Of a DNA stretch of 64,000 bases, positions 596 through 16,631 are shown piece after piece; the first letter of the stretch is position 1; every line of letters begins with the position of its first letter. Location: positions 1 through 64,000 of the forward strand of contig JAFPWX010000017.1 in the NCBI GenBank assembly GCA_017412645.1, given 5' to 3'. The stretch comes from Bacteroidales bacterium (GTDB lineage: Bacteria > Bacteroidota > Bacteroidia > Bacteroidales > UBA932). The position numbers and the translations under genes were made by a program. The notes beneath the pieces were generated by a model. It did no database searches and had not been told where the DNA came from. It was given only the letters and a program-made list of their open reading frames with translations.

Positions 596-636
596 AGTTA
601 TTGGTTATTAGTTGTCTTGCGAAAAAGGGAGCGGAA

Positions 637-1671
637 TTACACCTCCGTGGCGGTGGCGAATTCGCTGAGGAAGCGCATGTCGTTCTCGAAATAGTGACGA
701 AGGTCGTTCACCTGCCACTTGAGCATGGCGATTCGCTCTACGCCCATGCCGAAGGCGAAGCCGCTGTACTGCTCGGGGTCGATGCCGCTGGCCTTGAGGA
801 CGTTGGGATCGACCATGCCGCAGCCCATGATTTCCAGCCAGCCGGTGCCCTTGCAGATGTTGCAGCCCTTGCCATGGCAGATGTTGCAACTTACGTCCAC
901 CTCGGCGGACGGCTCCGTGAAGGGGAAGTAGGAGGGGCGCATGCGGATTTCGGTATCCGGGCCGAACATCTCGCGGGCAAAGAGCAGGATGGCCTGCTTG
1001 AGGTCGGCGAAAGTGACGTCCTTGTCAATGTACAGGCCCTCCACCTGGTGGAAGATGCAGTGGGCACGGGCCGAAATGGCCTCATTGCGAAAAACGCGGC
1101 CCGGGCACACCACGCGGATGGGCAGGGGCTGGCTTTCCATGGTGCGCACCTGCACGGATGAGGTGTGGGTGCGGAGCAGAAGCGGATTCAGGTGCCCGGT
1201 GCTCACGAAGAAGGTGTCCTGCATTTCGCGGGCGGGGTGGTTGGGCGGGAAGTTCAAGGCCTCGAAGACATGGTAGTCGTCCTCGATTTCGGGGCCTTCG
1301 GCCACATCGTAGCCGAACTTGCGGAAGATGTCCACAATCTGCTGGCGCACGATGGAAACCGGATGGCGGGAACCCAGCGGCAGGGCGTCTCCGGGCATGG
1401 AGAGGTCTTCCTTGGGGGCTTCGGCCTGGGCGTTTTCCTCCACGGAGAACTTGAGTTCTTCGATGCGGGCGTTGGCGGCCTTCTTGAGTTCGTTCAGTTT
1501 CTGGCCATATTCGCGCTTGAGTTCGGGCGCCACGGAGCGGAACTGCTCCATGAGGGCCGTGATTTCGCCTTTCTTGCCCAGAAAACGGATGCGGGCCTCC
1601 TCGACCTCCTTGGCGGTATTGGCCTTGAGTTCGTTCAGTTCCTTGAAAATTTGTTCAATCGCTTCTTTCAT
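637..1671 (-). CDS. pheS: Phenylalanine--tRNA ligase alpha subunit (copy 1)
   Basis: This is the catalytic alpha subunit of the alpha2beta2 enzyme that charges tRNA-Phe in the cytoplasm. The 344-residue length is normal. Residues 1-90 form the charged N-terminal coiled coil. The class II catalytic core follows, with GSRHPVSIVRQQIVDIFRKF, FEALNFPPNHPAR, the motif-2-like RVFRNEAISARAHCIFHQVE and the motif-3 region GFAFGMGVERIAMLKW. A CNICHGKGCNICKGTGW segment with four cysteines is a variant found in this phylum. It lies four bases after a small exported-protein gene on the same strand. A second full-length pheS, about 75-80% identical by eye, lies at 10262-11299 after a homologue of the same small gene. 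pheT is not adjacent to either copy. Confidence 0.97.
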   Translation of the reverse strand: MKEAIEQIFKELNELKANTAKEVEEARIRFLGKKGEITALMEQFRSVAPELKREYGQKLNELKKAANARIEELKFSVEENAQAEAPKEDLSMPGDALPLGSRHPVSIVRQQIVDIFRKFGYDVAEGPEIEDDYHVFEALNFPPNHPAREMQDTFFVSTGHLNPLLLRTHTSSVQVRTMESQPLPIRVVCPGRVFRNEAISARAHCIFHQVEGLYIDKDVTFADLKQAILLFAREMFGPDTEIRMRPSYFPFTEPSAEVDVSCNICHGKGCNICKGTGWLEIMGCGMVDPNVLKASGIDPEQYSGFAFGMGVERIAMLKWQVNDLRHYFENDMRFLSEFATATEV

Positions 1672-1674
1672 ATC

Positions 1675-2091
1675 TTATTTTTTCTTTTTGTTCCTCTTGT
1701 CACGGGCTTCCTGGGCACGCCGGGCGCCGCTTTTCCAATACTTGGTCCACTGCTCCTCAGTGAAAAAACGCTTGTAGGAGTCATCGATGGCCTGCATCCA
1801 CTTGTCCTGCACGTTGACATACAGGTCGCGGTTTTCCACCTTGGCCTTCTGCATGGATTCCATCTCTTCGGTCATGGCACGGTAGTCGTGCGTGAGGGTG
1901 GAATCGACATAAAACTCCTGCCAGTATTCCAAATCCAGCAGGCTGCTCAGGCGCTGGACCTCTTTATCGACGAACTCCAAAAGTTGCTTCTCCTTCTCCT
2001 GAGGCGTCTGGGGCGGCTGATTTTGCGCACCTGCAACAAAAACCGACAGGCAAAGAGCCGCAAGCAAGTTCAATAAACGATAAATTTTCAT
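1675..2091 (-). CDS. Small exported protein of unknown function, paired with pheS (copy 1)
   Basis: I do not recognise a named family. The 138-residue product starts with a Sec signal peptide (MKIYRLLNLLAALCLSVFVA, cleavage near AGA-QN). A charged, mostly helical body follows, with LDLEYWQEFYVDSTLTHDY and EEQWTKYWKSGARRAQEARD, ending in a lysine-rich tail. I place the start at 2091, because the upstream ATG at 2112 would put seven non-signal residues before the signal peptide. It ends four bases before pheS. Its homologue at 9839-10258 also precedes a pheS gene, so the pairing is conserved within the window. A periplasmic role is inferred from the signal peptide only. Confidence 0.8.
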   Translation of the reverse strand: MKIYRLLNLLAALCLSVFVAGAQNQPPQTPQEKEKQLLEFVDKEVQRLSSLLDLEYWQEFYVDSTLTHDYRAMTEEMESMQKAKVENRDLYVNVQDKWMQAIDDSYKRFFTEEQWTKYWKSGARRAQEARDKRNKKKK

Positions 2092-2098
2092 ACCTTTG
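2091..2098 (+). promoter_or_regulatory. Candidate -7 box for the C69/phosphatase operon
   Basis: TACCTTTG matches the Bacteroidetes -7 consensus TAnnTTTG and lies 55 bases before the C69 start. It overlaps the start codon of the divergent small gene. No good -33 TTTG is visible at the usual spacing, so this is tentative. Confidence 0.4.
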
Positions 2099-2116
2099 TA
2101 AACTGTTGTCAAACGA

Positions 2117-2148
2117 CAAAATTACGCAATAAATCGAAAAAGCCCAAA
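2117..2148 (-). promoter_or_regulatory. Promoter of small-protein/pheS unit (TTTG-N19-TAATTTTG)
   Basis: Read on the minus strand, TTTGG at 2144-2148 and TAATTTTG at 2117-2124 are 19 bases apart. This fits the Bacteroidetes -33/-7 pattern and lies 25 bases before the start codon at 2091. It occupies the same short intergenic space as the divergent C69 promoter. Confidence 0.6.
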
Positions 2149-2153
2149 ATACG

Positions 2154-3947
2154 ATGAGAAAATCGCTCCTTTATTTGCTTGCCACCGCCGCTTTCCTGCT
2201 CCTTTGGGGCGCGGAAGGAAACACCTGCACCAATGTCATCGTCACCCGCGGCGCCAGCCGGGACGGGTCCGTGCTGGTCTCGTACGCCGCCGATTCGCAC
2301 TACCTCTTCGGCGAACTTTACTACAAGCCGGCGGCCGACTGGAAACCCGGAACCATGCTTCCCGTCTATGACTGGGACACCCACCGCTACCTCGGAGAAA
2401 TCGAGCAGGTTCCCCACACCTACCAGACCGTGGGCAACATGAACGAGTACCAGGTCATCATCACCGAAACCACCTGGGGCGGACGTCCGGAACTGGAAGA
2501 CAAGAAGGGCGGAATCGACTACGGTTCCCTCATCTACATCGCCCTGCAGCGCTCCCGGACCGCCCGGGAGGCCATCGAGGTCATCGTAAACCTGGCCAAC
2601 GAGTACGGTTACGCCTCGGAAGGCGAAACCTTCTCCATCGCCGACAAGAACGAAGCCTGGATCATGGAACTCATCGGCAAGGGCACCCTTATCAAGAACG
2701 GGATCAATGTGAACAAGGGCATCGTCTGGGTGGCCATGCGCGTGCCGGACGGAGCCATCTGCGCCCATGCCAACCAGGCCCGCATCGGCAAGTTCCCCAT
2801 GGACGACCCCGACAACTGCCTCTATGCCCCGGACGTGATTTCCTTTGCCCGTAAAAAGGGTTATTTCGACGGCCTGGACAGCGATTTCAGTTTCAAGAAG
2901 GCCTACAACCCCATCGACTTCGGCACCGTACGCGGCTGCGACGCCCGCGCCTGGAGCGCCTTCAACATCCTCACCGAAGGCTGGTTCTCCTTCTACGATG
3001 AGGAAGGCAACGCCGTCACCCGCGACGCCTTCTCCTACCTGGACTACGTGATGGGCAACAACCTGGAGGGAGACTTCCCCCTGTTCGTATTCCCCCGCAA
3101 AAAGGCCGGCGTGAAGGAAGTGGCCGATGTCATGAGAGACCACTTCGAAGGAACGCCCATGGATATGACCCAGGATATCGGCGCCGGCGGAAACGCCCTC
3201 CCGTACCGCTGGAGGCCCATGGAATTCCAGGACGCCGAAGGCAACACCTATGTGAACGAGCGCGCCATCGCCACCCAGCAGACCGGATTCTGGATGGTGG
3301 GCCAGGCCCGCAACTACGTTCCCGACGTAGTGGGCGGCATCCTGTGGTTCGGCACCGACGATGCCGCCACCTCCTACCTCACCCCCATCTACACCGCCAC
3401 CACCGCCGTGCCGGACTGCTTCCGCGAGGGCAACGGAGACCTTCTCCACTACTCGCCCACCGCCTCTTTCTGGATCAACAACCGCATTTCCAACGCCTGC
3501 TACAAGATGTACAACGTCATGGCTCCCTACGTGAGGGCCAAGGCCGATCTGTTCGAAATCGAGCAGATGGAACGCCGCACCCACTCGGTGGACAGCATGG
3601 CCGTGGTGATGTACAACCAGGTGGCCGTGAAACTGCAGAAGAAACTCTCCTCCCGGGGAGACGTGATGGTGCAGCGCAAGCCCTTCGCCAAGATCGTGGA
3701 ATATGTGACCAACTATACCGTGAACACGGCCCAGAAGCAGTTTGCCGACTGGCAGAACCTGGAAGTGGAACTGCTGGTGAAATACATGGACGGCAATGTG
3801 AAACCGCAGGACGAGAACGGCCGCTTCAAGCACTCCCAGTACTCTGAAGGCATGCCCGAGAGCATCGAGTGGCCCGGTTACACCGACCTCTGGAAAGAAA
3901 CCGTCGCCCAGGAACACGGGCAAACGATCAAAGTCCCCGGGAACTGA
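2154..3947 (+). CDS. Dipeptidase, peptidase family C69 (copy 1)
   Basis: This is an exported Ntn-type hydrolase of the PepD/C69 family, which cleaves dipeptides after autocatalytic exposure of an N-terminal cysteine. The signal peptide MRKSLLYLLATAAFLLLWG runs to about residue 22. The nucleophile is expected to be Cys25 in TCTNVIV. Family motifs follow in order: VSYAADSH, GNMNEYQVIITETTWGG, DYGSLIYIALQRSRTAREAI, ANEYGYASEGETFSI, DFGTVRGCDARAW and NERAIATQQTGFW. At 597 residues it is full length. The histidine phosphatase starts two bases after its stop, so the two form an operon. A second, roughly two-thirds identical copy is at 14913-16631. Its expected role is periplasmic peptide breakdown. 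Confidence 0.92.
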   Translation: MRKSLLYLLATAAFLLLWGAEGNTCTNVIVTRGASRDGSVLVSYAADSHYLFGELYYKPAADWKPGTMLPVYDWDTHRYLGEIEQVPHTYQTVGNMNEYQVIITETTWGGRPELEDKKGGIDYGSLIYIALQRSRTAREAIEVIVNLANEYGYASEGETFSIADKNEAWIMELIGKGTLIKNGINVNKGIVWVAMRVPDGAICAHANQARIGKFPMDDPDNCLYAPDVISFARKKGYFDGLDSDFSFKKAYNPIDFGTVRGCDARAWSAFNILTEGWFSFYDEEGNAVTRDAFSYLDYVMGNNLEGDFPLFVFPRKKAGVKEVADVMRDHFEGTPMDMTQDIGAGGNALPYRWRPMEFQDAEGNTYVNERAIATQQTGFWMVGQARNYVPDVVGGILWFGTDDAATSYLTPIYTATTAVPDCFREGNGDLLHYSPTASFWINNRISNACYKMYNVMAPYVRAKADLFEIEQMERRTHSVDSMAVVMYNQVAVKLQKKLSSRGDVMVQRKPFAKIVEYVTNYTVNTAQKQFADWQNLEVELLVKYMDGNVKPQDENGRFKHSQYSEGMPESIEWPGYTDLWKETVAQEHGQTIKVPGN

Positions 3948-3949
3948 TT

Positions 3950-5206
3950 ATGAAAAAGAACCTTGTCCTCCTTTTGGCAGCGGCCTTCGCCGTCCTTCCC
4001 CTGGCAGCCCAGCGCAACACCCGGGAAGAGATATCGGCCGATCTCGAGCGCACCGGCGGTGTGCATTTCCTCTATCCCACGGACCAGCCGGCCCCCACGC
4101 CGGCGCCCAAAGGCTACAAACCCTTCTATGTGAGCCACGTGGGCCGTCACGGAGCGCGCTACGCCCTGGGAAACACGGTCTATGAAGACATCCTGGCCGT
4201 CTGGAACAAGGCGGCCGAAAAGGGTCTCCTCACCCCGGAAGGCGAGCGGTTCTACAAGGAATATCTGGATATCTATCCCTACCTTTGCCGCCGCGAAGGC
4301 ATCCTCACGGAAAAAGGCCAGGCACAGCATCACTACATTGCCTCGCAGATTTACAGGAACTATCCTGCCGTGTTCAAGGGAAAAACGCACGCAGAGGCCG
4401 TCTCCACCATTTCGCACCGCGTCATCGTGAGCATGTTCTCCTTCCTGAGCGAACTGGACAACCTGGACAGGGATTTCACCTTCCATGCCGACTACGGCCA
4501 CCCGTACCAGGCCTATCTGCTGCCGGACGTCATCGACTCTTCCGAAGAAAGGGACGGGCAGGCCGAGGTGAAGTTCAACCGCTTCCGGGACCATGTCCTG
4601 GACCTGGACGCCATGTTGGAGCGGTGGTTCACCAAAACCCGCGGCCTGGTGGACAACAAGTACAAGTTCTGCTTTGACATGCACACCATGCTGTCCACCC
4701 TGGACAACTTGGACGTACCCGTTCCGGAGCATCTGTACCAGTTATACACTCCCGAGGAGCGCTATGCCCTCTGGCGCGTGAACAACTTCCGGGACTACCA
4801 GATCGTGGGTCCGTCGCCCGACACCCGGAACCTGCGCGTCAAGGCCATGAAAGCCCTGTATGAGGACTTCGTCTCCAAGGCCGAAGAGGATATCGCCGGC
4901 GGCCGCGTACAACTGCGCCTGCGCTTCGCCCACGACTCCACCCTGATGCCGCTGCTGTCCCTGCTGGGCGTGAACGGCATGAACGAGGTGGTGGAAAACC
5001 CCTTCGAAGTGGAGAACTACTGGCGCAGTTACGACGTTCCCATGGCCTGCAACCTGCAACTCATTTTCTTTAAAAGCAAAAAGAATCCGGAACTTCTGTT
5101 CCAGATTCTCTTGAACGGAAGGGAAGCCACGCTTCCCCTGGAAATGGCCGCTCCCGGCTCCTTCTACCGCTGGGAAGACTTCAAAACACTACTTGTTTCG
5201 GACTAA
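3950..5206 (+). CDS. Exported histidine-type (phytase/MINPP-like) phosphatase
   Basis: This 418-residue exported phosphatase belongs to the branch-2 histidine acid phosphatases. The signal peptide [20 protein letters not shown] ends near residue 20. The catalytic motif VGRHGARY sits at residues 64-71 (phosphohistidine His67), and the proton-donor motif [10 protein letters not shown] is about 330 residues in. The family includes multiple inositol polyphosphate phosphatases and acid phosphatases, so phytate or another phosphomonoester is a likely substrate, but the sequence alone does not settle it. I use the ATG at 3950, which starts a clean signal peptide two bases after the C69 stop, rather than an upstream in-frame ATG inside that gene. 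Its last 18 bases overlap the convergent clpB end. Confidence 0.85.
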
Positions 5207-7351
5207 CACTTCCGAGCCGGCAGCATCGACCAGAATGACGGAGTCCTTGTGGACGGTGCCGTCCAGGATGTTCTTGGCCAGGAGGTTCACCAGTTCCCGC
5301 TGCATCAGGCGTTTGACGGGACGGGCGCCATAGGCGGGGTCGTAGCCGTTTTCCACCATGTGATTCTCAAAGGCGGGGCTGAACTCCACCGTGATGCCGT
5401 TGCTCTCGAGTTTGTGCCGCAGGTCCTCTTCCTGAATGTGCAGGATGTCGCGGATATCGGCCTTGGTGAGCGGGTCGAACATGATGATCTCGTCGATACG
5501 GTTCAGGAATTCCGGACGCACCGTCTTCTTGAGCACGTCCAGCACCTTGCCCCGGCATTCGTCCAGCAGGGAACGGCGCGAGGCGATGGCCTGCATGTCC
5601 AGACCGTTCACCTCGGGCAGACGCTCCATGTACGACTGGATGATGTCGGCCCCGGCGTTGGAGGTCATGATGAGGATGGTGTTCTTGAAATCCACGGTAC
5701 GGCCCGTGTTGTCGGTGAGCCGGCCGTCGTCCAGCACCTGCAGAAGCACGTTGAACACGTCGGGATGGGCTTTTTCAATCTCGTCCAGCAGCACCACCGA
5801 ATACGGTTTGCGCCGCACGGCTTCGGTGAGCTGGCCGCCCTCGTCGTAGCCCACATATCCCGGAGGCGCACCCACCAGACGGCTTACAGTGTGCCGCTCC
5901 TGGTATTCGCTCATGTCGATACGCGTAAGCATGTTCTCGTCGTTGAAGAGGAATTCGGCCAAGGCCTTGGCCAGTTCCGTCTTGCCCACGCCGGTAGTGC
6001 CCATGAAGAGGAAACTGCCGATGGGGCGTTTTTCGCTGGAGAGGCCCGCACGGCTGCGCCGCACGGCGTCGGCCACGGCGCGGATGGCCTCATCCTGACC
6101 TACGACCCGCTTGTGCAGTTCGGTTTCCATGCGCAGGAGTTTTTCCTTCTCGCTCTCGAGCATCCGCTTCACGGGGATGCCGGTCCACTTGGCCACCACC
6201 TCGGCAATGTCTTCTGGCGTAACCGCCTCGGTGACAAGCGGATTCTTGATGGCTTCGGCCTTGGCGGTAAGTTCATCGATACGCTTCTGGGTGTCGGCCA
6301 TGCGGCCGTAGCGGATTTCGGCCACCTTGGCGTAGTCTCCGCTGCGCTCGGCCGTTTTGGCCTGGAGGTTCAGGTCTTCCAGTTCCTGACGGGCCGTCTG
6401 CAGGCCGCCGAGGGTGTCTTTTTCCTCGTTCCAACGCTTCATGAGGCCCTCGCGTTCGTCTTGCAACTGCTTGAGTTCGGATTCGAGTTTTTCCAGTTTC
6501 ACGGAAACGCCCTCGCGCTTGATGGCCTCGCGCTCGATCTCTTTCTGCCGGATGGCCGAATTGAGTTCGTCGATGGGTTCCGGCACGGAATTCATCTCCA
6601 GCCGCAGTTTGGAAGCGGCCTCATCCACCAGGTCGATGGCCTTGTCCGGGAGGAACCGACTAGTGATGTAGCGGTGCGACAGGTTCACGGCGGCGATGAG
6701 GGCGTCGTCTTCGATGCGCACCTTGTGGTGGTTTTCGTATTTCTCCTTGAGGCCGCGGAGAATGGCGATACTTTCGGCGGGCGAGGGCTCGTCTATCATC
6801 ACCTTCTGGAAGCGGCGCTCGAGTGCCTTATCCTGCTCGAAGTACTTCTGGTATTCGTCCAGGGTGGTGCTGCCTATCGTGCGCAGTTCACCGCGGGCCA
6901 GGGCCGGCTTGAGGATGTTACTGGCGTCCATGGCCCCGGAGCTGCGGCCGGCGCCCACGAGGGTGTGGATTTCATCGATGAAGAGGATGATTTCGCCCTC
7001 GCTCTCAACGACTTCCTTTACCACGCCCTTGAGGCGCTCCTCGAATTCGCCCTGATACTTTGCGCCTGCGATGAGGGCGCCCATATCCAGGGAGAAGAGC
7101 CGCTTGCTCTTGAGGTTTTCCGGAACCTGTCCGTTCACTATCTTGGTGGCCAGTCCCTCTGCAATGGCGGTCTTACCCACGCCGGGTTCGCCCACCAGGA
7201 TGGGGTTGTTCTTCGTGCGCCTGCTCAGGATCTGCAGCACACGGCGGATCTCGTCGTCACGGCCTATCACCGGGTCCAGCTTCCCCTGGGATGCCGATCC
7301 AGTAAGGTCTATGGCGTATTTGCTTAAGAATTCGTATTTATTTTCACTCAT
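5189..7351 (-). CDS. clpB: ClpB-type disaggregase lacking the N-terminal domain
   Basis: This hexameric AAA+ chaperone resolubilises aggregated proteins together with DnaK. The 720 residues hold NBD1 (Walker A GEPGVGKT at 54-61, Walker [10 protein letters not shown]), the ClpB-specific coiled-coil M domain (about 270-400, for example [18 protein letters not shown]), NBD2 (Walker A GTTGVGKT, pore loop GYVGYDEGG, Walker [12 protein letters not shown]) and the C-terminal domain ending in VLVRNK. The roughly 140-residue Clp-N repeat domain that normally comes first is absent. Translation starts directly at the linker before NBD1, and the 130 bases upstream cannot encode the missing domain. No ClpP-binding loop is evident, so disaggregation rather than degradation is expected. 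The leader hairpin at 7357-7399 probably controls translation. Confidence 0.94.
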
Positions 7352-7356
7352 AATTT

Positions 7357-7399
7357 AACCTCCTTTTCCCGCCTTTCAGCGGTCGGAAAAGAGGAGGTC
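7357..7399 (-). promoter_or_regulatory. clpB leader hairpin covering a strong Shine-Dalgarno sequence
   Basis: In the clpB mRNA sense the leader carries AAGGAGGTT, whose GGAGG core is seven bases before the ATG. Its complement GACCTCC lies 5' of it. Pairs: 7358-7363 with 7393-7398, 7364-7369 with 7385-7390, and an inner CCGC/GCGG at 7369-7372 with 7379-7382, with a two-base bulge at 7391-7392. The whole Shine-Dalgarno sits in the stem, as in RNA thermometers of heat-shock genes. The structure is seen in the sequence; thermal control is inference. Confidence 0.6.
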
Positions 7400-7445
7400 A
7401 AATTACATTCCACTGACAAAATGTCAGGAAAATCTGTGGCAATAT

Positions 7446-7476
7446 TTTGGATTTATTGCCAAAATAATTATATTTG
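7446..7476 (+). promoter_or_regulatory. Promoter of nucleotidyltransferase/AlbA_2 operon (TTTG-N19-TATATTTG)
   Basis: TTTG at 7446-7449 and TATATTTG at 7469-7476 are separated by exactly 19 bases, an excellent match to the Bacteroidetes consensus. The start codon at 7483 follows six bases after the -7 box. This supports the 7483 start over the TTG at 7474, which lies inside the box. Confidence 0.75.
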
Positions 7477-7482
7477 CGGAGT

Positions 7483-8253
7483 ATGAAATATCAAGTGGAA
7501 ATAACAGATAAAATGCGGGCCGTTCACGAATTGATGCTGGAAAGATTCGTGGGTATGGGCTGCTGTATCTCGGAACACGGGGAGAACCTTATTCTGGAAG
7601 TCCCCCGCGGAGACATGGAGGCCGTTGTTGCTTCTCTCAAAGAGAATTACCGGGATGTGGTGCTCATTCGCAAGGCATATGAAATGATCGACGACCTGCA
7701 CGATTTCATTCTTGTAAAGCCCCTCGTTTCTGAGGCGCCGCTCGAGGTAATGTCCGGTCTGGAATGCCCGTCTCTCGAAAAACAGCTGGTCGATATGGCT
7801 TCGGATAAAGAGTTCAGCAGCCTTTCCGAAATGCAGATAAAGCGGGCCTTCCAGCACGCCTTTGAAGTATACGACCTCAACACCAGCAGGATGCTGCGTT
7901 ATGCCGGACGCAAGGGCGAGAAGGCAGAAATTTCCTCTCTAATCGAGGCGGTGGATGACGACCGCATTCGCACGGTAAGGCAAATACAGGATTATCTTTC
8001 CGGTCAGCCGGTGGACAGAGCCTGGATGTTTGGATCTTTCTCCAGAATGGAAGAGCGGCCAGATAGCGATATCGATCTTCTGATTGCCCTTCGGCGAGGC
8101 TCCGGAATGGGTCTGCTCGGGTATTCCTCAATGGCCCTTGAACTTGAAGGTCTCCTCTCCAGAAAAGTCGATCTTATAACCGAAGGCTCACTCAAGCCCT
8201 TCGCCCTGGAAAACGTTAACAAAGATAAAGTCCTGATATATGAGAGAGCCTGA
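7483..8253 (+). CDS. Protein with C-terminal MNT-type nucleotidyltransferase domain
   Basis: The 256-residue protein ends in a minimal nucleotidyltransferase fold. Its catalytic signature GSFSRMEERPDSDID fits GS-x10-DxD, with Gly184/Ser185 and Asp196/Asp198. The N-terminal 170 residues have no obvious named domain. They are rich in charged helices, including QIKRAFQHAFEVYDLNTSRM, which may bind a partner. Such domains transfer nucleotides to proteins or small RNAs and are common in toxin-antitoxin and phage-defence modules. The gene has a near-consensus promoter and is followed three bases later by an AlbA_2 gene, so the two are co-expressed. The substrate is unknown; a defence role is inference from context. 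Confidence 0.75.
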   Translation: MKYQVEITDKMRAVHELMLERFVGMGCCISEHGENLILEVPRGDMEAVVASLKENYRDVVLIRKAYEMIDDLHDFILVKPLVSEAPLEVMSGLECPSLEKQLVDMASDKEFSSLSEMQIKRAFQHAFEVYDLNTSRMLRYAGRKGEKAEISSLIEAVDDDRIRTVRQIQDYLSGQPVDRAWMFGSFSRMEERPDSDIDLLIALRRGSGMGLLGYSSMALELEGLLSRKVDLITEGSLKPFALENVNKDKVLIYERA

Positions 8254-8256
8254 ATT

Positions 8257-9738
8257 ATGTCCCTCAGCCAGAAAGAACTCATAGCTAAAATACAAGACAT
8301 AGAATGGGACGACTTTGAAGCCAAAGCCTCCAGAACCCAGCTTCCGGCCGACACCTGGCGCACCGTCAGTGCCTTCTCCAACACCTCTGGTGGATGGATT
8401 CTCTTCGGAGTAGCTCAGCACGGAAAGAATTTCGAGATTGAAGGCATAGAGAATGGCGAGAAGATAGAGAATGACTTCCTCACCACCATTCGCAACAAAG
8501 ACAAATTCAATCACGTCCTCCACTGCGAAGCAAAGAAACTCAACGTGGACGGCAAGTTGCTCCTTGCCTTTTACATTCCATCCTCCGAACTCAAGCCCAT
8601 CTGGTTCAACACCCCAAAAAACACTTTCATCCGCAGTGGCTCCGGCGACCAACAGGCCAATGATCTGGAAATCTCCGCCATCTACAGAGACCAGGCTTTC
8701 GGCAGCCAGTCAGAGAAACCCATCGGGGAAACCAGTTTCGAAGACATCAATCCCGGCTCCTTCGCATCATACCGCAAGCGCGTCAGGGAAGAGAACCCCG
8801 GCTTCTTCGCCAACGACTACGACGATGAAACCTTCTGCCGCGTAACTGGTATCACCAAGAAAGGACGCCTCACATACGGCGGCCTCCTCATGTTCGGCAG
8901 ATTCGACATTGTACGCGAGCACTGCCCCAACTTCTGGGTAGATTACCTGGAAATTCCAGGCACATCTTATAGCGACGCTACCGTCCGTTACTCCTACCGG
9001 ATGCCCGAGCTTGACAACCTCTGGGAGTACTACCGTGCCCTCATTCAGCGTCTCCGCCTCCATGTGGACGCGGCACCGTTTACCACCGGTCCTGACGGCT
9101 TCTCTCCTGACGATGAGTCGCAACTATACGCCCTTCGCGAAGGCCTGGTAAACCTCGAATCTCATACCGATTATTTTGCGCCTATGCATCCAACAATCAG
9201 AATCTTTGATAATCGAATTGAATTCCAGAATCCAGGGAGATTTGTGCGTGGCCTTGAGCATCTGAGGAATACCATTTCATCATCTCCACGAAATCCCAAC
9301 ATCTTAAAACTTTTCCGATACGCTAAGCTTTCAGAGAATGCTGGATATGGTATCAACAAAATCTACTCTTGGGAGCGTTATACTGGTGAAAAAGTGGAAT
9401 TTGCGACCGATATTATGAGCACCACGGTAACCTATTGGCGTCCAAAGGTGGGCACCACGGTCAAAAGGGTTGAAAACTCAAGTGCGGTTAGTAAAGAAAC
9501 TAACCTCAGAACTAACCCCAGAACTAACCCCGCTAAACGAAAAGAAAGAGGCCCCGAATTACGCACAAAGATGATTCGTATCATGAAAGCCACTCCCACC
9601 ATTACTAGGCAGGAACTCGCAAATCTCTGTGGTGTTAATATAGCCGGTATCAAGTATCACTTACGCATTCTTAAAGACGAAATGGGAATTCATTGGCAAG
9701 GCTCCAGTATCAAGGGACATTGGGTGCTGCCGGAATAA
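8257..9738 (+). CDS. AlbA_2 (Schlafen-like) ATP-binding protein with C-terminal winged helix
   Basis: The 493-residue protein starts with an AlbA_2/Schlafen AAA domain (about 5-125: FEAKASR, then VSAFSNTSGGWILFGVAQ). The middle has the usual C-terminal ATPase-like segment of this family (TIRIFDNRIEFQNPGRFVRG and KLSENAGYGINKI). A spacer with the repeat RTNPRTNP follows near residue 420. A winged-helix segment comes last (TRQELANLCGVNIAGIKYHL), so DNA binding is likely. Family members act as transcription regulators or as accessory proteins in defence islands. It is translated with the preceding nucleotidyltransferase gene. The segment from about 9150 to 9700 looks richer in A+T than the flanks, consistent with transfer. 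Confidence 0.78.
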   Translation: MSLSQKELIAKIQDIEWDDFEAKASRTQLPADTWRTVSAFSNTSGGWILFGVAQHGKNFEIEGIENGEKIENDFLTTIRNKDKFNHVLHCEAKKLNVDGKLLLAFYIPSSELKPIWFNTPKNTFIRSGSGDQQANDLEISAIYRDQAFGSQSEKPIGETSFEDINPGSFASYRKRVREENPGFFANDYDDETFCRVTGITKKGRLTYGGLLMFGRFDIVREHCPNFWVDYLEIPGTSYSDATVRYSYRMPELDNLWEYYRALIQRLRLHVDAAPFTTGPDGFSPDDESQLYALREGLVNLESHTDYFAPMHPTIRIFDNRIEFQNPGRFVRGLEHLRNTISSSPRNPNILKLFRYAKLSENAGYGINKIYSWERYTGEKVEFATDIMSTTVTYWRPKVGTTVKRVENSSAVSKETNLRTNPRTNPAKRKERGPELRTKMIRIMKATPTITRQELANLCGVNIAGIKYHLRILKDEMGIHWQGSSIKGHWVLPE

Positions 9739-9823
9739 GCCGGCATCCGACGGTGCCAACGGTATCCCCTCCGGCTGGACGGTCCAGGAGGAATAGCTCC
9801 GGGATATATTACGGAATATTTAC

Positions 9824-9831
9824 TAACTTTG
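9824..9831 (+). promoter_or_regulatory. -7 box before small-protein/pheS copy 2
   Basis: TAACTTTG matches TAnnTTTG and ends seven bases before the ATG at 9839. The transcript would be nearly leaderless. The -33 element is weak. Confidence 0.5.
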
Positions 9832-9838
9832 CAGTCTT

Positions 9839-10258
9839 ATGAAATGTAGGACTGCATTGTTGTTTTTAATGCTGCTGGTGCCGGGCGTAGCTTTCGCGCA
9901 GCAGCAGGGGCCCCAGACCCCGGAGCAGCGGGAGAAGCAGATGTACGAGAACATCCAGAAGCAGGTGGACAATATGGCCGAGAGCCTGGATCTTGAGGAC
10001 TGGCAGATTTTCTATGCCGATTCCATCCTCACCACCAACTTCGGAGCACTGGCGAAGGAGTTCGAGGATCTGGGGAAGAACAAGGTGTCCGACCCGGAAG
10101 TGTATTCCCGTCTGCAGGATGCCTGCATGGAAAAGAACTATAACGCTTTCCGCAGAATTCTGAACGAACAGCAGTGGGCGAAGTACCTGAAGACAGGCGC
10201 CGCCCGGGACAAGAAGGCCCGTGACAAGCGCGCGGAGAAAAGGGAGAAACAGAAGTAG
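9839..10258 (+). CDS. Small exported protein of unknown function, paired with pheS (copy 2)
   Basis: The 139-residue product has a signal peptide (MKCRTALLFLMLLVPGVAFA, cleavage before QQQ). Its mature part is homologous to the product of 1675-2091: TPEQREKQ, LDLEDWQIFYADSILTTNF and NEQQWAKYLKTGAARDKKAR align with the corresponding stretches of copy 1. The C-terminus is again lysine/arginine rich. It ends three bases before pheS copy 2. Two independent copies keep both the reading frame and the linkage to pheS, so this is a real gene, though no function is known to me. Confidence 0.8.
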   Translation: MKCRTALLFLMLLVPGVAFAQQQGPQTPEQREKQMYENIQKQVDNMAESLDLEDWQIFYADSILTTNFGALAKEFEDLGKNKVSDPEVYSRLQDACMEKNYNAFRRILNEQQWAKYLKTGAARDKKARDKRAEKREKQK

Positions 10259-10261
10259 ATT

Positions 10262-11299
10262 ATGACAAACGAACAGATACAGCAGGTAGTCGATGAGCTT
10301 AAGGCTCTGAATGCAAAAACCGCAAAGGAAGTGGAGGAGGCGCGCGTGCGCTTCCTTGGCAAGAAGGGCAGCATCACCGCCCTCTTCGAAGAGTTCCGCG
10401 AGATCGCTCCGGAGTACAAGAAACTCTATGGCAAGGCCCTCAACGTGCTCAAGCAGGAGGCGATCGCCAAGATCAATGAACTCAAGGAGATAGCCGAGGC
10501 CGACATCGCCGCGGGCGGCTCCATGGAAGATCTTTCGCTTCCGGGCGAAGGCTTCGAGATGGGCAGCCGTCATCCGGTGAGCATCGTCCGTCAGGAGATC
10601 GTTGACATCTTCCGGAAATTCGGATACGACGTGGCCGAGGGTCCGGAGATCGAGGACGACTGGCATGTGTTCGAGGCCCTTAACTTCCCGCCGAACCACC
10701 CTGCCCGCGACATGCAGGACACCTTCTTCGTGAGCGCCGGCCACGACAATCCCGTGCTGCTGCGCACCCACACTTCGAGCGTGCAGGTCCGCGCCATGGA
10801 AAAGATGCAGCTCCCCATCCGCGTCATCTGCCCGGGCCGCGTGTTCCGCAACGAAGCCATCAGCGCCCGTGCGCACTGCATCTTCCATCAGGTGGAAGGT
10901 CTTTACATCGACGAGGGCGTGACCTTCGCCGACCTCAAGCAGGCCATCCTTCTGTTCGCCCGCGAGATGTTCGGGGAGGACGCCCAGATCCGCATGCGTC
11001 CCAGCTACTTCCCCTTCACCGAGCCTTCGAGCGAGGTCGACGTTTCCTGCAACATCTGCCACGGCAAGGGCTGCAATATCTGCAAGGGTACCGGTTGGCT
11101 GGAGATTCTCGGCTGTGGTATGGTAGACCCCAACGTTCTGGAAGCCAACGGAATAGATTCCAAGAAATACAGCGGCTTTGCCTTCGGAATGGGCATCGAG
11201 CGCATAGCCATGCTCAAGTGGCAGGTGAACGACCTGCGCCACTATTTCGAGAACGACCTGCGATTCCTGCACGAGTTCGACACCGCAGTTGAGGTCTAG
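10262..11299 (+). CDS. pheS: Phenylalanine--tRNA ligase alpha subunit (copy 2)
   Basis: This is a second complete pheS of 345 residues. It keeps every core motif of copy 1, including GSRHPVSIVRQEIVDIFRKF, RVFRNEAISARAHCIFHQVE, the four-cysteine CNICHGKGCNICKGTGW and GFAFGMGIERIAMLKW. The C-terminal two thirds are close to 90% identical to copy 1 by eye, while the N-terminal coiled coil has diverged more (MTNEQIQQVVDELKALNAKT against MKEAIEQIFKELNELKANTA). No frameshift or lost catalytic residue is visible, so both copies look functional. Two different alpha subunits in one genome would be odd unless one gives resistance to an inhibitor, or the contig joins two genomes. Confidence 0.96.
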   Translation: MTNEQIQQVVDELKALNAKTAKEVEEARVRFLGKKGSITALFEEFREIAPEYKKLYGKALNVLKQEAIAKINELKEIAEADIAAGGSMEDLSLPGEGFEMGSRHPVSIVRQEIVDIFRKFGYDVAEGPEIEDDWHVFEALNFPPNHPARDMQDTFFVSAGHDNPVLLRTHTSSVQVRAMEKMQLPIRVICPGRVFRNEAISARAHCIFHQVEGLYIDEGVTFADLKQAILLFAREMFGEDAQIRMRPSYFPFTEPSSEVDVSCNICHGKGCNICKGTGWLEILGCGMVDPNVLEANGIDSKKYSGFAFGMGIERIAMLKWQVNDLRHYFENDLRFLHEFDTAVEV

Positions 11300-11314
11300 C
11301 TCTGCGGACTCGGC

Positions 11315-12433
11315 ATGAAAGCACCCAAATCCCTCCTTATTGCATCGGCGCTGCTGGCACTGCTGGCGGCAGCTTGCGGCGGGCGCGCTCCCGGAAACGG
11401 CAAGCCCCTCTCGCACAGGGATAGCATACGCATAGTCCATAAAGCCCATCGCGACAGCGTGCGGGCACTGCGGCGCATGCCCGAGGCCTACCGCGACAGC
11501 CTGAAGGCCGCCAGGGAAGAGGCCGCCCGACTCGAGGCTCTCCGCAAGCGTCTGGTCGACACCCTGGAATACAGGGCGCTCATGGATTCTCTGGCGAATG
11601 GCGACACCTCAGGCCGCTGGCCCGCAAAGGCTCCCTATCCCTATCGCGGGGCCATCCTTCCGTACCATCGCGTCGTCGCCTACTACGGAAACCTCTATTC
11701 CAAGCAGATGGGCGTGCTGGGCGAGTATCCGCCGGACACCCTCTGGATGAAGCTCCGTCGGGAGATGGCCGCCTGGCAGGCCGCGGACCCGTCGACCCCG
11801 GTAATGCCAGCAATCCACTATATCGTGACAACGGCCCAGGGCTGGCCGGGAAGGGATTCGCTTTGGAGACTTCGCATGCCGCGCAAACAGATTGATTCGG
11901 CCCTCGCCATTGCCGCCATGGGCGACGCCATCGTCTTCCTGGATATCCAGGTGGGACTTTCGAACGTGCAGGCAGAGGTACCGGTAATCGAGGAGTACCT
12001 GAAGCTGCCGCACGTGCATCTGGCAATCGACCCCGAGTTTATGATGCATAACGGGAAGCGGCCCGGAAGCGTGATCGGTTCGATGGACGCCACCCAGATT
12101 AACTGGTGCGCGAAGTACTTGCAGCGTATCGTCCAGGAAAACAAGCTGCCGCCGAAGATGCTGGTGATTCACCGCTTCACGAGCGCGATGGTGAAGAATT
12201 CATCGGCTATACAGCCGCTGCCGGAAGTACAGATCATTATGGATATGGATGGCTGGGGCGCGCCGAAGCTGAAACGCAGCACCTATAATTGGTGCATCTA
12301 CCGCGAGCCGGTTCAGTTCACCGGGTTCAAGCTCTTCTACAAGAACGACCTCAAGCAGGAGCCGCATCGCATGATGACTCCCGCCGAGGTGCTGGAGCTG
12401 AAGCCGAAGCCGATTTATATTCAGTATCAGTAG
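11315..12433 (+). CDS. Lipoprotein of unknown function, possible TIM-barrel
   Basis: The 372-residue product is a lipoprotein (MKAPKSLLIASALLALLAAA, lipid-anchored cysteine at LAAAC). Residues 35-100 form a charged helix with repeated RDS units (SHRDSIRIVHKAHRDSVRAL, AYRDSLKAAREEAARLEALR), probably a coiled-coil stalk. The rest looks like an alpha/beta barrel with alternating hydrophobic strands: IVFLDIQVGL, VHLAIDPEFMM, MLVIHRFTSAM and VQIIMDMDGWG. Conserved acids at strand ends hint at an enzyme, but I cannot name a family. It follows pheS by 15 bases and may share its transcript. Confidence 0.7.
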   Translation: MKAPKSLLIASALLALLAAACGGRAPGNGKPLSHRDSIRIVHKAHRDSVRALRRMPEAYRDSLKAAREEAARLEALRKRLVDTLEYRALMDSLANGDTSGRWPAKAPYPYRGAILPYHRVVAYYGNLYSKQMGVLGEYPPDTLWMKLRREMAAWQAADPSTPVMPAIHYIVTTAQGWPGRDSLWRLRMPRKQIDSALAIAAMGDAIVFLDIQVGLSNVQAEVPVIEEYLKLPHVHLAIDPEFMMHNGKRPGSVIGSMDATQINWCAKYLQRIVQENKLPPKMLVIHRFTSAMVKNSSAIQPLPEVQIIMDMDGWGAPKLKRSTYNWCIYREPVQFTGFKLFYKNDLKQEPHRMMTPAEVLELKPKPIYIQYQ

Positions 12434-12496
12434 CCGACGCGAGAGGCAGCAGTTTTCAGGGTTAGTATCATTATAGGCCAAAAACGCGACCAAGAG

Positions 12497-13237
12497 CTAA
12501 GGGTGAGCTGTCAAGCGGAATTCTCGTTGCGCTCTTGCCATGTCCCGACGGAATTCGCGCGAGGACTGTAGCCGGGAATAGCCGATCGAAGCGACCGGAC
12601 GGCTGGCATCGACGTCGCTCTGCCAGTGGCAGCCGGCAATGACGCGGCTCTCTCCGGCTGCCCATGCCCTGGCGTAGATAGCCTCGGCGTTTTCAGGATT
12701 GATTTCCGCCATCAGAAGCGCGCAAGCCCAGGCACGGATGGTATGGCCGGAAGGATAGGAGCCTTCGGTTGCGAGCCAGTCGTCATCTTCCGGAAAAATG
12801 GAAGGCTCACCGTAGAAGGCGAAGGGCCTGATTCGGAAGTAGTACGCTTTGGGCCGGAAGCGGATGTTCTCTATGGTGGTAATACCGCGGGTAAGGACGT
12901 TGTAGATCTGAGGGGTCTTTTCGAGAGAGACTTCCTTGCCGAACGGCACGCTCATGATGGCCAGCGTGGTATCGAGGCTCCAGATGGCGTCTCTCACGGC
13001 TTCGGCCAGCCTTTCAGGATTGGCACGCTGGGCCTTCCCCCACTCGTAGCGGATGGAGTCGTATTCGAATTCCGGGCTGTTGAAGGCGGGCGGAGCCGGA
13101 ACGCACTGCACCACGTCCGGAAGGAGTTCCTCGGCGATATAGGGTTGAGGGGATTCGGAAGACTGACTTACGCAGCCTGACAGGAGGCTGAGGGCTAAAG
13201 TGATGACAGCTGTCGAAAAGAAGGATTTCGCGTTCAT
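12497..13237 (-). CDS. Class A acid phosphatase / PAP2-family lipoprotein
   Basis: This exported 246-residue phosphatase has a lipoprotein signal (MNAKSFFSTAVITLALSLLS then GC). It carries the three PAP2 active-site motifs: KAYYFRIRP, GSYPSGHT and SRVIAGCHWQSD, the last holding the catalytic His and Asp. The arrangement matches PhoN-type nonspecific acid phosphatases, which act in the periplasm on many phosphomonoesters. A -7 box (TATCTTTG, minus strand, 13243-13250) lies six bases before the start. It faces away from a palindromic array and the IS element. Confidence 0.88.
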   Translation of the reverse strand: MNAKSFFSTAVITLALSLLSGCVSQSSESPQPYIAEELLPDVVQCVPAPPAFNSPEFEYDSIRYEWGKAQRANPERLAEAVRDAIWSLDTTLAIMSVPFGKEVSLEKTPQIYNVLTRGITTIENIRFRPKAYYFRIRPFAFYGEPSIFPEDDDWLATEGSYPSGHTIRAWACALLMAEINPENAEAIYARAWAAGESRVIAGCHWQSDVDASRPVASIGYSRLQSSREFRRDMARAQREFRLTAHP

Positions 13238-13242
13238 ATATA

Positions 13243-13250
13243 CAAAGATA
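13243..13250 (-). promoter_or_regulatory. -7 box of PAP2 phosphatase gene
   Basis: TATCTTTG on the minus strand, six bases upstream of the start at 13237, matches TAnnTTTG. Confidence 0.5.
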
Positions 13251-13274
13251 GTAAAAAATGGAAATCGGAGCGGT

Positions 13275-13334
13275 GTGGAAGGTCACGACTTTCAACCTAA
13301 ACCTTCCACGAAAAAGCCTACAATCGTGGAAGGT
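13275..13334. repeat. Palindromic array, left of IS (alternating GTGGAAGGT boxes)
   Basis: GTGGAAGGT occurs at 13275-13283 (+), 13301-13309 (-) and 13326-13334 (+). Adjacent boxes can pair as stem-loops. Box starts are 26 and 25 bases apart. The mirror-image set is on the other side of the IS. Confidence 0.7.
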
Positions 13335-13373
13335 CCACCCTCAAATGAAGTGCGCCCCTTTTGTTGGACGGAT

Positions 13374-14171
13374 TTAACAATTAGATATATGGTTATGAGT
13401 TCGGTATTGCACCGGACTCATTCCGTTCAATTTTTTCTTGATTCTAACTTCGTTGTAATAACGCAGATATTCATCAAGTTCTTTCAAAAAGTGCTCGACA
13501 GAGTCGAACTTCTGCAAATATAGCAATTCCGACTTCAAAAGGCCAAAGAAGTTTTCCATCACGGCATTGTCCAGACAGTTTCCTTTCCTGGACATGCTTT
13601 GTATTATATTATTGTCTTTCAGCAATTTCTGATAGTTTTTGTGCTGATATTGCCAGCCTTGGTCGGAGTGTAATATGGCATTAGTGTTAGATCCTATGAT
13701 CGCGACGGTCCCTTCAATCATATCCTTAACCATATCCAGTACCGGATGCCTGTATATGGTGTAAAAGATGAGTTCTCTATTGTATAGGTCCAGAACGGGA
13801 GACAGATATATCTTCTCTCCGAACAAATGGAACTCGGTTACGTCGGTAACCATCTTCTTATGAGGCTGCGTGGCCTTGAAGTCCCGTTCCAAAAGGTTCG
13901 GTGCAATCTTTCCGACCTCTCCCTTATATGACCTGTATTTCTTCATCCTGACTTCACACTTCAATCCTGCCTCGGACATTAGCCGGCGCACTGTCTTTCC
14001 GTTGATGAGATATCCTTCATTGCGCATCGCCATAGTGAGGCGGCGATAGCCATAACGTCCTCTGTTAAGGTGATATAGCTCTACTATGCGCTGTCGTTCA
14101 ACAGCCCACTTGTCATTCTTTTCTCTGTTGTTGTAATAGAATGTAGATCTAGCCATCCCCTTGATCTCCAA
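13374..14171 (-). CDS. IS3-family transposase OrfB (catalytic, rve domain)
   Basis: The 265 codons after the first ATG encode the DDE integrase-type catalytic part: HTH_21-like N-terminus (RYGYRRLTMAMRNEGYLI), first Asp in VTDVTEF, second in LHSDQGWQYQH, and Glu in NAVMENFFGLLKSE. The true product is probably OrfAB. The orfB frame is open upstream to the A7 slippery run at 14267-14273, and a -1 shift there joins orfA to a frame reading through LLLEIKGMARSTFYYN. The stand-alone ATG start is therefore only nominal. Confidence 0.88.
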   Translation of the reverse strand: MEIKGMARSTFYYNNREKNDKWAVERQRIVELYHLNRGRYGYRRLTMAMRNEGYLINGKTVRRLMSEAGLKCEVRMKKYRSYKGEVGKIAPNLLERDFKATQPHKKMVTDVTEFHLFGEKIYLSPVLDLYNRELIFYTIYRHPVLDMVKDMIEGTVAIIGSNTNAILHSDQGWQYQHKNYQKLLKDNNIIQSMSRKGNCLDNAVMENFFGLLKSELLYLQKFDSVEHFLKELDEYLRYYNEVRIKKKLNGMSPVQYRTHNHISNC

Positions 14172-14197
14172 GAGGAGTTCAAGACGGTGTTCCGGCC

Positions 14198-14740
14198 TTA
14201 GTTCTTGGATGGCCCCCGCCCAATCGCGCGTAGACGGGCTTCTTTTTCTTCGACTAAGGCCTTCACTTTTTTTAACAGAGCATTCTCCGCCTCAAGATAC
14301 TCGTTGCGCTTGCGGAGCATCTCAAGTTCATCCAGCTCTGATGTAGTTATGTGCCTTTTCTTTTTCATAGAATGCTCACTGCGCTTTCTGCCTAGTCCTT
14401 CCAATCCGTGTTGTTCATATGCCTGTCTCCAGCGTCCTAACGTACAAGCTGGATAATCATATATTGCCGCAGCTTCGTACAAAGATAATCCCTTTTCCTT
14501 AATGCTTAACACTATCTCTTCCTTCTTATTCGCCTCAATATGAGGGGAATAAACTGGCTGTAGCAAAGCTAGCTCGCCGCCTTTGAGATAAAGTTTGCGC
14601 ACACGTTTGATAGTGTCAAGCCCCATATGCAGCTCACGAGCAACAACACACGGCAACTTACCCGCATCCATCTGACGCATTGCCTGGACATACTTTGGGT
14701 AGTTCTCATTCCTTTTCATAACCCTTTCTTTTATGTCCAA
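14198..14740 (-). CDS. IS3-family transposase OrfA (helix-turn-helix)
   Basis: The 180-residue protein has two helix-turn-helix units, as in IS150-like OrfA. The first is around KLPCVVARELHMGLDTIKRV and the second around LSLYEAAAIYDYPACTLGRW. A leucine-rich coiled coil follows (DELEMLRKRNEYLEAENALL) and serves for oligomerisation. The coding A7 run (LKKVKA) at 14267-14273 is the likely frameshift site that makes the OrfAB transposase. Confidence 0.85.
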   Translation of the reverse strand: MDIKERVMKRNENYPKYVQAMRQMDAGKLPCVVARELHMGLDTIKRVRKLYLKGGELALLQPVYSPHIEANKKEEIVLSIKEKGLSLYEAAAIYDYPACTLGRWRQAYEQHGLEGLGRKRSEHSMKKKRHITTSELDELEMLRKRNEYLEAENALLKKVKALVEEKEARLRAIGRGPSKN

Positions 14741-14768
14741 CTTTTGGGGCGCAGATCAAAAAAGGCAG

Positions 14769-14828
14769 ACCTTCCACGAAAATGCACGAAATCGTGGAAG
14801 GTCCCCATCAAAATCCGGGACCTTCCAC
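14769..14828. repeat. Palindromic array, right of IS
   Basis: ACCTTCCAC (the complement of GTGGAAGGT) is at 14769-14777 and 14820-14828, with GTGGAAGGT at 14794-14802. Spacings are 25 and 26 bases, the mirror of the left side. The first two boxes extend to an 11-base stem, ACCTTCCACGA with TCGTGGAAGGT. Confidence 0.7.
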
Positions 14829-14898
14829 AATCAGAGATTTAGAGGCGGACCTGAACAGCTACAGGTGCGCAGGTACCGGGGGTATGCGCCAAAATTAT

Positions 14899-14906
14899 TA
14901 TATTTG
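14899..14906 (+). promoter_or_regulatory. -7 box of C69 dipeptidase copy 2
   Basis: TATATTTG ends six bases before the ATG at 14913. This supports that start over an in-frame ATG at 14733 inside the IS terminus. Confidence 0.6.
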
Positions 14907-14912
14907 CGCTAT

Positions 14913-16631
14913 ATGAAACGCAATATCTTCCTTTCCCTTGCGGCAGGGCTGGCAGCAAAGATGGCCGCAGGGATTGCGGCACTGACCGCCACGCTGATTT
15001 TCAGCACCCCCGCAAACGCATGCACCAACGTTATTGTCACCCCCGGAGCAAGTGCCGACGGAAGCGCGATGGTATCGTACGCGGCCGATTCCCACGGGCT
15101 TTTCGGCGAACTGTACTTCCTCAGGGGAGGCAGGCATCCCAAGGGAGCAATGCGCTCCATCATAGAATGGGATACCGCCAAACCGCTGGGGCAGATACCG
15201 CAGGCGCCGCTCACCTACCAGAGGGTCGGCAATATGAACGTGAACCAGGTTGCGATAGGCGAGACCACCTGGGGAGGAAGGCTGGAGCTCATGGACTCTA
15301 CCGGCATAATGGACTACGGCTCCCTGATTTACGTAGCGCTCGAGCGTGCCCGCACGGCGAGGGAAGCGATAGAGATTATCGTGACCCTGGCAAATGAATA
15401 CGGCTATGCTTCGGAGGGCGAGACCTTCAGCATCATCGACAAGAGCGAGGCGTGGATAATGGACCTCATCGGCAAGGGCCCGGACAATCGCGGCATAGTG
15501 TGGGTGGCCCGCCGCATCCCCGACGGCTACATTTGCGGACACGCCAACCAGTGCCGCATCACCCGCTTCCCGCTGGACGATCCGGAGACGCTCTACGCGC
15601 CCGACGTGATCTCCTTCGCCCGCGAGCAGGGTTTCTTCAGCGGGGCCGACGAGGAGTTCTCGTTCCGTGAGGCCTACTGCCCGCTCGACTTCGGCACGGT
15701 TCGCGGATGCGATGCCAGAGTGTGGAGCATGTTCCGCATCCTGGGCGGCAGCGGCTTCGACGCCGACGCCTATCTTGATTACGCCATGGGTTACGATCTG
15801 GCCGGAGAGATGCCGCTGTGGATCAAGCCGGAGCACAAGATCACCCCGAAGGACGTGGCCGACGTGATGCGCGACCATTATGAGGGGACGCCCATGGACA
15901 TGAGCACCGACATCGGCGCGGGCGGAAACGCACTGCCTTACCGCTGGCGCCCGATGGGGTTCAAATGGAACGGAAAAGAGTATCTGAACGAGCGCGCTAT
16001 CGCTACCCAGCAGACCGGATTCTGGTTCGTGGCCCAGGCCCGTCCCTGGCTTCCCGATGCCGCCGGCGCGCTTGTATGGTTCGGCTGCGACGATGCTGCA
16101 ACCTCCTATCTTACACCGATTTACGTCAGCACCTCCAAGGTGCCGGAGTGCCTCCGCGAGGGCAACGGCAACCTGCTTCATTACAGCGCCACCTCGCAGT
16201 TCTGGATGTGCAACCGCGTGACCAACGCCTGCTACAAGATGTACAATTACATGGCTCCAGTGGCACGCTGCGCGGCCGATGCCTTCGAGCAGGAACAGAT
16301 GTTCAGCGCCGTTCCGGAACTGGATTCGAAACTGGCCAGGATTCTTGAGCGCGGAGGGATTTTCGGAGGAAAGTGCAGGGCACGGAGACTGATGACGAAG
16401 CATACAGTGCGCACCGCGCAGAAGCAGTTCGCCGCATGGACCAAGCTCGAGGAACTGCTGCTCGTGAAATTTATCGACGGTAATGTGAAAGCCCAGAACA
16501 AAGACGGCAGCTTCAAGCACAGCGAGTATTCCGAGGGCATTCCCGCCGGACTCACCCAGCCGGGATACACCGAGTTCTGGAAGGAAGGCGTGGCGAACAG
16601 CCAGCACGGAAAAGTACTGGAGGCCCGATAG
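14913..16631 (+). CDS. Dipeptidase, peptidase family C69 (copy 2)
   Basis: This 572-residue exported Ntn hydrolase is homologous to the product of 2154-3947. Its long signal region (MKRNIFLSLAAGLAAKMAAG to ANA, about 34 residues) leads to the nucleophile motif ACTNVIVTPGAS. It keeps VSYAADSH, GETTWGG, DYGSLIYVALERARTAREAI, ANEYGYASEGETFSI, DFGTVRGCDARVW and NERAIATQQTGFW. Relative to copy 1 it lacks short insertions around residues 185 and 280. The Fe-S membrane protein gene starts on the base after its stop codon, so it heads a three-gene unit. Confidence 0.92.
   Translation: MKRNIFLSLAAGLAAKMAAGIAALTATLIFSTPANACTNVIVTPGASADGSAMVSYAADSHGLFGELYFLRGGRHPKGAMRSIIEWDTAKPLGQIPQAPLTYQRVGNMNVNQVAIGETTWGGRLELMDSTGIMDYGSLIYVALERARTAREAIEIIVTLANEYGYASEGETFSIIDKSEAWIMDLIGKGPDNRGIVWVARRIPDGYICGHANQCRITRFPLDDPETLYAPDVISFAREQGFFSGADEEFSFREAYCPLDFGTVRGCDARVWSMFRILGGSGFDADAYLDYAMGYDLAGEMPLWIKPEHKITPKDVADVMRDHYEGTPMDMSTDIGAGGNALPYRWRPMGFKWNGKEYLNERAIATQQTGFWFVAQARPWLPDAAGALVWFGCDDAATSYLTPIYVSTSKVPECLREGNGNLLHYSATSQFWMCNRVTNACYKMYNYMAPVARCAADAFEQEQMFSAVPELDSKLARILERGGIFGGKCRARRLMTKHTVRTAQKQFAAWTKLEELLLVKFIDGNVKAQNKDGSFKHSEYSEGIPAGLTQPGYTEFWKEGVANSQHGKVLEAR

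Follow-up and report, generated by a model that had tools for sequence, protein, structure and literature searches.

Gene content of the locus

The window analyzed here, a stretch of 64,000 nucleotides, comprises bases 1-64000 of a contig (C12; 166,283 bp) in the assembly of a Bacteroidales bacterium (G000; 1,797,621 bases in 26 contigs, completeness 96.41, contamination 1.13), which we infer to be a metagenome-assembled genome (MAG). Two copies of pheS, the gene for the alpha subunit of phenylalanyl-tRNA synthetase, lie in its left part, each accompanied by a small gene (sm1 and sm2) and a gene for a C69 peptidase. Comparison with related genomes of the same genus, of which G009 and G339 are the most informative, suggested that C12 is very probably an inter-species assembly chimera, in which a left block touching the contig end is joined to the native backbone inside a clpB-like gene. 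The features that bear on this are as follows.

1..6733, no strand: block of putatively foreign DNA, from a species of the G339 type; bounded on the left by the contig end and on the right by the switch at 6663-6733
2..595, minus strand: membrane H+-pyrophosphatase (H+-PPase), truncated at the contig end after its first 198 residues; PF03030 at 188.7 bits; 99% identical to G339
637..1671, minus strand: pheS1, phenylalanyl-tRNA synthetase alpha, presumed foreign copy; PF01409 and PF02912; 99% protein identity to G339
1675..2112, minus strand: sm1, presumed foreign copy; 100% (rounded) identical to G339 and 43% to sm2
2154..3947, plus strand: C69 peptidase, presumed foreign copy; PF03577 at 268 bits; 100% (rounded) identical to G339
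3950..5206, plus strand: histidine phosphatase (branch 2), presumed foreign copy; PF00328 at 42 bits; 100% (rounded) identical to G339
5189..7351, minus strand: hybrid clpB-like open reading frame (ORF) with AAA and ClpB_D2-small domains; 3' part (to about 6733) presumed foreign, 5' part (6734-7351) presumed native
6663..6733, no strand: join; 71-bp stretch identical to G339, to the right of which identity to G339 is about 80%
9839..10258, plus strand: sm2, presumed native; 82% identical to G009
10262..11299, plus strand: pheS2, taken as the native pheS; 95% protein and 84.9% DNA identity to G009
14913..16631 (start approximate), plus strand: C69_2 peptidase, presumed native; PF03577; 85% identical to the C69 peptidase of G009

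Both pheS ORFs are intact (344 aa for pheS1 and 345 aa for pheS2), each carries the Pfam domains of the PheS core and N terminus, and no other pheS match was found in the assembly, in which pheT is single. The preliminary description of this DNA had noticed two complete but diverged pheS genes, judged by eye to be about 75-80% identical, each preceded by a homologous small gene and associated with one of a homologous pair of C69 genes at 2154 and 14913. All of this agrees with measurement: the pheS copies share 79% protein and 76.0% DNA identity, sm1 and sm2 are homologous over 129 residues and have no Pfam match in the domain scan, and the C69 peptidases are 59% identical. One C69 gene was counted in G009, two in G000 (one of them inside the putative foreign block) and four in G339, the pieces of one frame being joined.

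A change of lineage inside clpB

Bases 1-6733 align without gaps to contig C8 of G339 at 99.4% identity, with 38 mismatches in 6733 nt, 35 of which fall in 1-6622; the next stretch, 6734-7290, holds 107. In bins of 500 bases, identity to G339 is 99-100% over 1-6500 and then drops to 90% and 79%, while in the same bins over the left block G178, a relative of G339, reaches 86-93% and G009 68-84%, with several bins unmatched. G178 carries the same block in the same gene order at 89% identity, and the order seen in G339 is therefore natural for that clade. At the level of single genes, pheS1 is 99.1% identical in DNA to the pheS of G339, with 2 amino-acid differences. Two 20-kb stretches of one G339 contig were searched against the own genome: the first matched C12:1-7290 at 98% and elsewhere 68-87%, with at most 79% over 200 bases (40 of 104 candidates scored), and the next 20 kb gave nothing above 77% (40 of 84 candidates scored).

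The preliminary description had proposed a join between 7.4 and 9.8 kb. Mismatch mapping placed the actual switch of lineage at 6663-6733, inside clpB, this being the last long G339-identical run before identity falls. The first blastn match extended to 7290, but the same mapping showed this to be an over-extension, and a join at that point was rejected. Trees of the two clpB parts, built with FastTree from 16 chosen relatives and the window (with C15, a second contig of the own assembly, added in the 3' tree), disagree: the 5' part (7351-6734) pairs with G009 as its sister (support 0.998), whereas the sister of the 3' part (6622-5189) is G339 (support 1.000). Similarly, the PheS tree against neighboring genomes, which had been recommended as a check, places the two copies in different lineages, pheS1 with G339 and pheS2 with G009, both with support 1.000. 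This tree held 60 sequences, namely 54 single-copy loci, 4 sequences from G263 and G375 and the 2 of the window; fragmented or cut copies such as those of G003, G005, G010 and G025 were omitted, as was G035. Next to the 84.9% DNA identity of pheS2 to G009, the second-best among the 60 sequences reaches 78.5%.

The probable native half of clpB on a second contig

A second, truncated clpB is present in the own assembly at C15:3-1343. Base 1 of C15 corresponds to window position 6642, 21-92 bases from the switch, and in the 3' tree its clpB piece has G009 as sister (support 1.000). The hybrid protein contains a stretch, residues 571-605, that is absent from the clpB of both C15 and G009; this difference is a lineage-specific indel. 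Among relatives, the stretch near these residues is lacking in G009, G001, G011, G022, G006 and G018 as well as in the own C15 copy, and is present in G005, G019 and G003. Because the C15 clpB starts near the switch, groups with G009 and has no 571-605 stretch, the native gene appears to be split, its 5' part lying on C12 and its 3' part on C15. By simple arithmetic, with 52 contig ends in 1.80 Mb, the number expected by chance to fall within 100 bp of any one site is about 0.006.

The far ends of the two contigs are paired as well. C15, which is 149,014 bases long, terminates within an H+-PPase gene of its own, the native copy (C15:148262-148855) sharing 79% protein identity with the copy on C12. 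The left end of C12 corresponds to G339:C8:18163, and the C15 match reaches 18306 with 15 C15 bases beyond, so that the two ends lie about 160 bases apart on this scale. When 1-7351 was compared with stretches of C12 and C15 from the own assembly, the longest exact match was 38 bp, at window 24-61, to C15. Such a paired pattern of ends would result if two related genomes crossed over in conserved regions, and C15 is presumably the true neighbor of the native part of C12.

The native backbone to the right of the switch

The remaining features of the right part are the following.

7474..8253, plus strand: nucleotidyltransferase-domain protein with DUF6577 and Polbeta; G+C content at third codon positions (GC3) 0.58
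8257..9738, plus strand: Schlafen/AlbA_2 and HATPase_c_4 protein (PF04326, PF13749); GC3 0.57
11315..12433, plus strand: protein of unknown function, also found after pheS in G009; 83% identical to G009; weak, sub-cut-off Pfam match to Imm21
12497..13237, minus strand: PAP2 phosphatase, presumed native; PF01569; 79% identical to G009
13374..14740, minus strand: two-ORF insertion element, with an integrase-core ORF at 13374-14171 (rve, rve_2, HTH_21) and a helix-turn-helix ORF at 14198-14740 (HTH_28)

Window 9817-13124 is colinear with G009:C77:9921-13528. Further right, mutS is also nearest to G009, at 81-88% in two pieces, followed by 73% for the next genome and 61% for G005, in a search of 22 congeners that did not include G339. 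The nucleotidyltransferase and Schlafen-like genes stand apart in composition, with GC3 of 0.57-0.58 vs 0.74-0.84 for the remaining 13 genes and partial genes in the comparison, and the genes at 7474-9738 have no match in the G009 stretches compared.

In the genus, the pheS-small gene-C69 locus usually has pheS and the small gene on the same strand, with the C69 gene directly beside the small gene and transcribed divergently from the other strand (29 of 35 loci), often with clpB nearby among the 35 loci with matches, and the left block has this same arrangement. The native block differs: C69_2 lies 4.7 kb beyond sm2, past the insertion element, and its relative orientation is opposite to that in G009, where its match (15012-16624 to 9811-8211) lies on the opposite strand. 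The displacement fits an ordinary local inversion or move.

The insertion element, which from its two-ORF layout we take to belong to the IS3 family, has palindromic repeats on both sides (13301-13345 and 14769-14830), consisting of ACCTTCCACGA and its complement 12 bases on. With at most 1 mismatch, ACCTTCCACGA has 6 matches in the window vs 1.11 expected, a number reached in 0 of 100 shuffles. These repeats resemble repetitive extragenic palindromic (REP) elements and may have served as an insertion target.

pheS across the genus

A pheS match was obtained in 374 of 400 genomes of the genus, with two matches in 18 of the 400. Among 61 genomes, six had two matches; in five of these (G003, G005, G010, G022 and G025) the matches are gene pieces, and G000 is the only one with two full-length copies. 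G009 and G339 have one pheS match each. The relatives found in another collection (best 80 of 576 confirmed loci) are uncultured Bacteroidales, some of them Candidatus Cryptobacteroides and many from ruminants; by their titles, 75 of these 80 are MAGs and 5 are uncultured isolates.

Duplicated genes were also seen in other assemblies. Contig C25 of G375 (UBA4231, DGXN01000006.1) carries pheS at 69385-70416 and 104013-105044, about 34 kb apart; the two are 82.8% identical in DNA and take different places in the pheS tree, and two C69 and two H+-PPase matches lie on the same contig, which is possibly a second chimeric contig or else a real duplication. The two pheS genes of G263 lie on different contigs (C28:8407-9438 and C85:1800-2831) at 80.8% DNA identity and look like redundant contamination. 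In G019, clpB occurs twice with equal score and identity (C13:9710-11857 and C32:15623-17770), probably by assembly duplication.

Weighing the explanations

The features seen at this locus, an abrupt switch of identity, conflicting trees within one ORF and a displaced native clpB at the edge of another contig that starts at the switch, together with two contigs ending in H+-PPase genes and a single pheT, point to a chimeric contig. Starting at pheS2 and moving to the left, the native path would pass the Schlafen-like and nucleotidyltransferase genes, enter clpB at its 5' end and go on into C15. At the conserved clpB stretch 6663-6733 the assembly most likely crossed into the same gene of another species, a near relative of G339, then continued through the phosphatase, C69, small gene and pheS of that species, and stopped at a conserved stretch of H+-PPase. 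The second species was presumably present in the same sample, and we infer that the switch arose in the assembler and not in the cell. The native genome would then most likely have one pheS (pheS2) and one C69 gene (C69_2). Of the explanations offered in the preliminary description, it is thus the chimera that the evidence supports, with its join relocated, and neither the segmental duplication nor the transfer conferring inhibitor tolerance is supported.

Several observations weigh against a chimera. The reading frame of the hybrid clpB is intact across the switch. The native counterpart of clpB 6643-6733 is found in neither C12 nor C15; C15 shares just its first 16 bases with the window at clpB, and in the comparison of 1-7351 with stretches of C12 and C15 no exact match reaches 41 bases. 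A false join would therefore have required either a short word common to both genomes or low coverage. The block and the backbone are almost alike in GC and GC3, and base composition was tried as a separator of the two and failed. Two full-length pheS genes also appear in G263 and in G375, among the matches listed for the 400 genomes, and more may exist. Finally, misassembly is described as relatively rare compared with mis-binning in a passage of the GUNC paper (PMC8201837).

A real and very recent recombination in clpB with G339-type DNA, which would have left a second pheS, small gene, C69 and H+-PPase in the genome, would fit both the 99.4% identity and the intact clpB frame, but judged from sequence it is improbable. 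The native 3' part of clpB, which would have been lost in an ordinary double crossover, survives at one edge of C15, where it begins at the switch; no mobility gene was found among the block ORFs scanned through Pfam, and the block ends at a contig edge. A single-crossover insertion could keep the native 3' part, but it needs circular donor DNA and a persisting duplication, and the C15 edge at the switch would be a coincidence. That the join is real in this form, with DNA of a related species recently inserted by a single crossover so that the bacterium carries a hybrid clpB as well as diverged duplicates of an essential synthetase gene and its neighbors, we hold to be very improbable. A complete block between two native flanks was not seen, one edge being the contig end, beyond which nothing is visible, and the other lying inside clpB.

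The proposal that a second synthetase had been acquired by transfer, for example for tolerance of an inhibitor, finds no support: the scanned ORFs are devoid of mobility genes, and the block is bounded by a contig end and a gene interior. Both PheS proteins keep the motif GFAFGMG, with no altered substrate-pocket motif, and the idea of inhibitor tolerance is therefore unsupported; position A294 of the Escherichia coli protein lies within this motif. One search of an open-license library found no paper combining an additional pheS with horizontal transfer. An ancient segmental duplication in this lineage, whose copies have since diverged, would account for the small gene, pheS and C69 in both blocks, but can hardly be credited, as pheS1 is nearly identical in DNA to G339 and far less similar to the neighboring pheS2, which is itself nearest to G009. 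The two copies do not both fall in the lineage of the organism, G009 and G339 have a single match each, and clpB switches lineage internally. Mis-binning of a whole contig without any false join would explain the presence of foreign DNA in the assembly, but the two kinds of DNA share a contig and the switch falls inside a gene, which makes it exceedingly improbable.

Relation to known chimeric contigs and implications

C12 resembles the chimeric contigs of the GUNC paper, which in the passage concerned are fragments of several sources wrongly assembled together (PMC8201837). In the terms used there, a contig adding close orthologs of genes already present amounts to "redundant contamination" (PMC8201837). 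The sources of C12 would be two species of one genus, and species-level chimerism is named there as an exception to the accuracy of GUNC (PMC8201837). Here, the probable chimera was betrayed by a surplus copy of a single-copy gene.

A false join at a conserved gene of two congeneric species can thus mimic a duplicated essential gene, and caution is needed; the artefact would have arisen in a very large genus and despite assembly ratings of 96.4% completeness and 1.1% contamination. Testing for tree conflict within a gene, and looking at the edges of other contigs for the native half that was displaced, works without reads. As for the organism itself, the surplus pheS set of the left block is almost certainly not a real feature of it.

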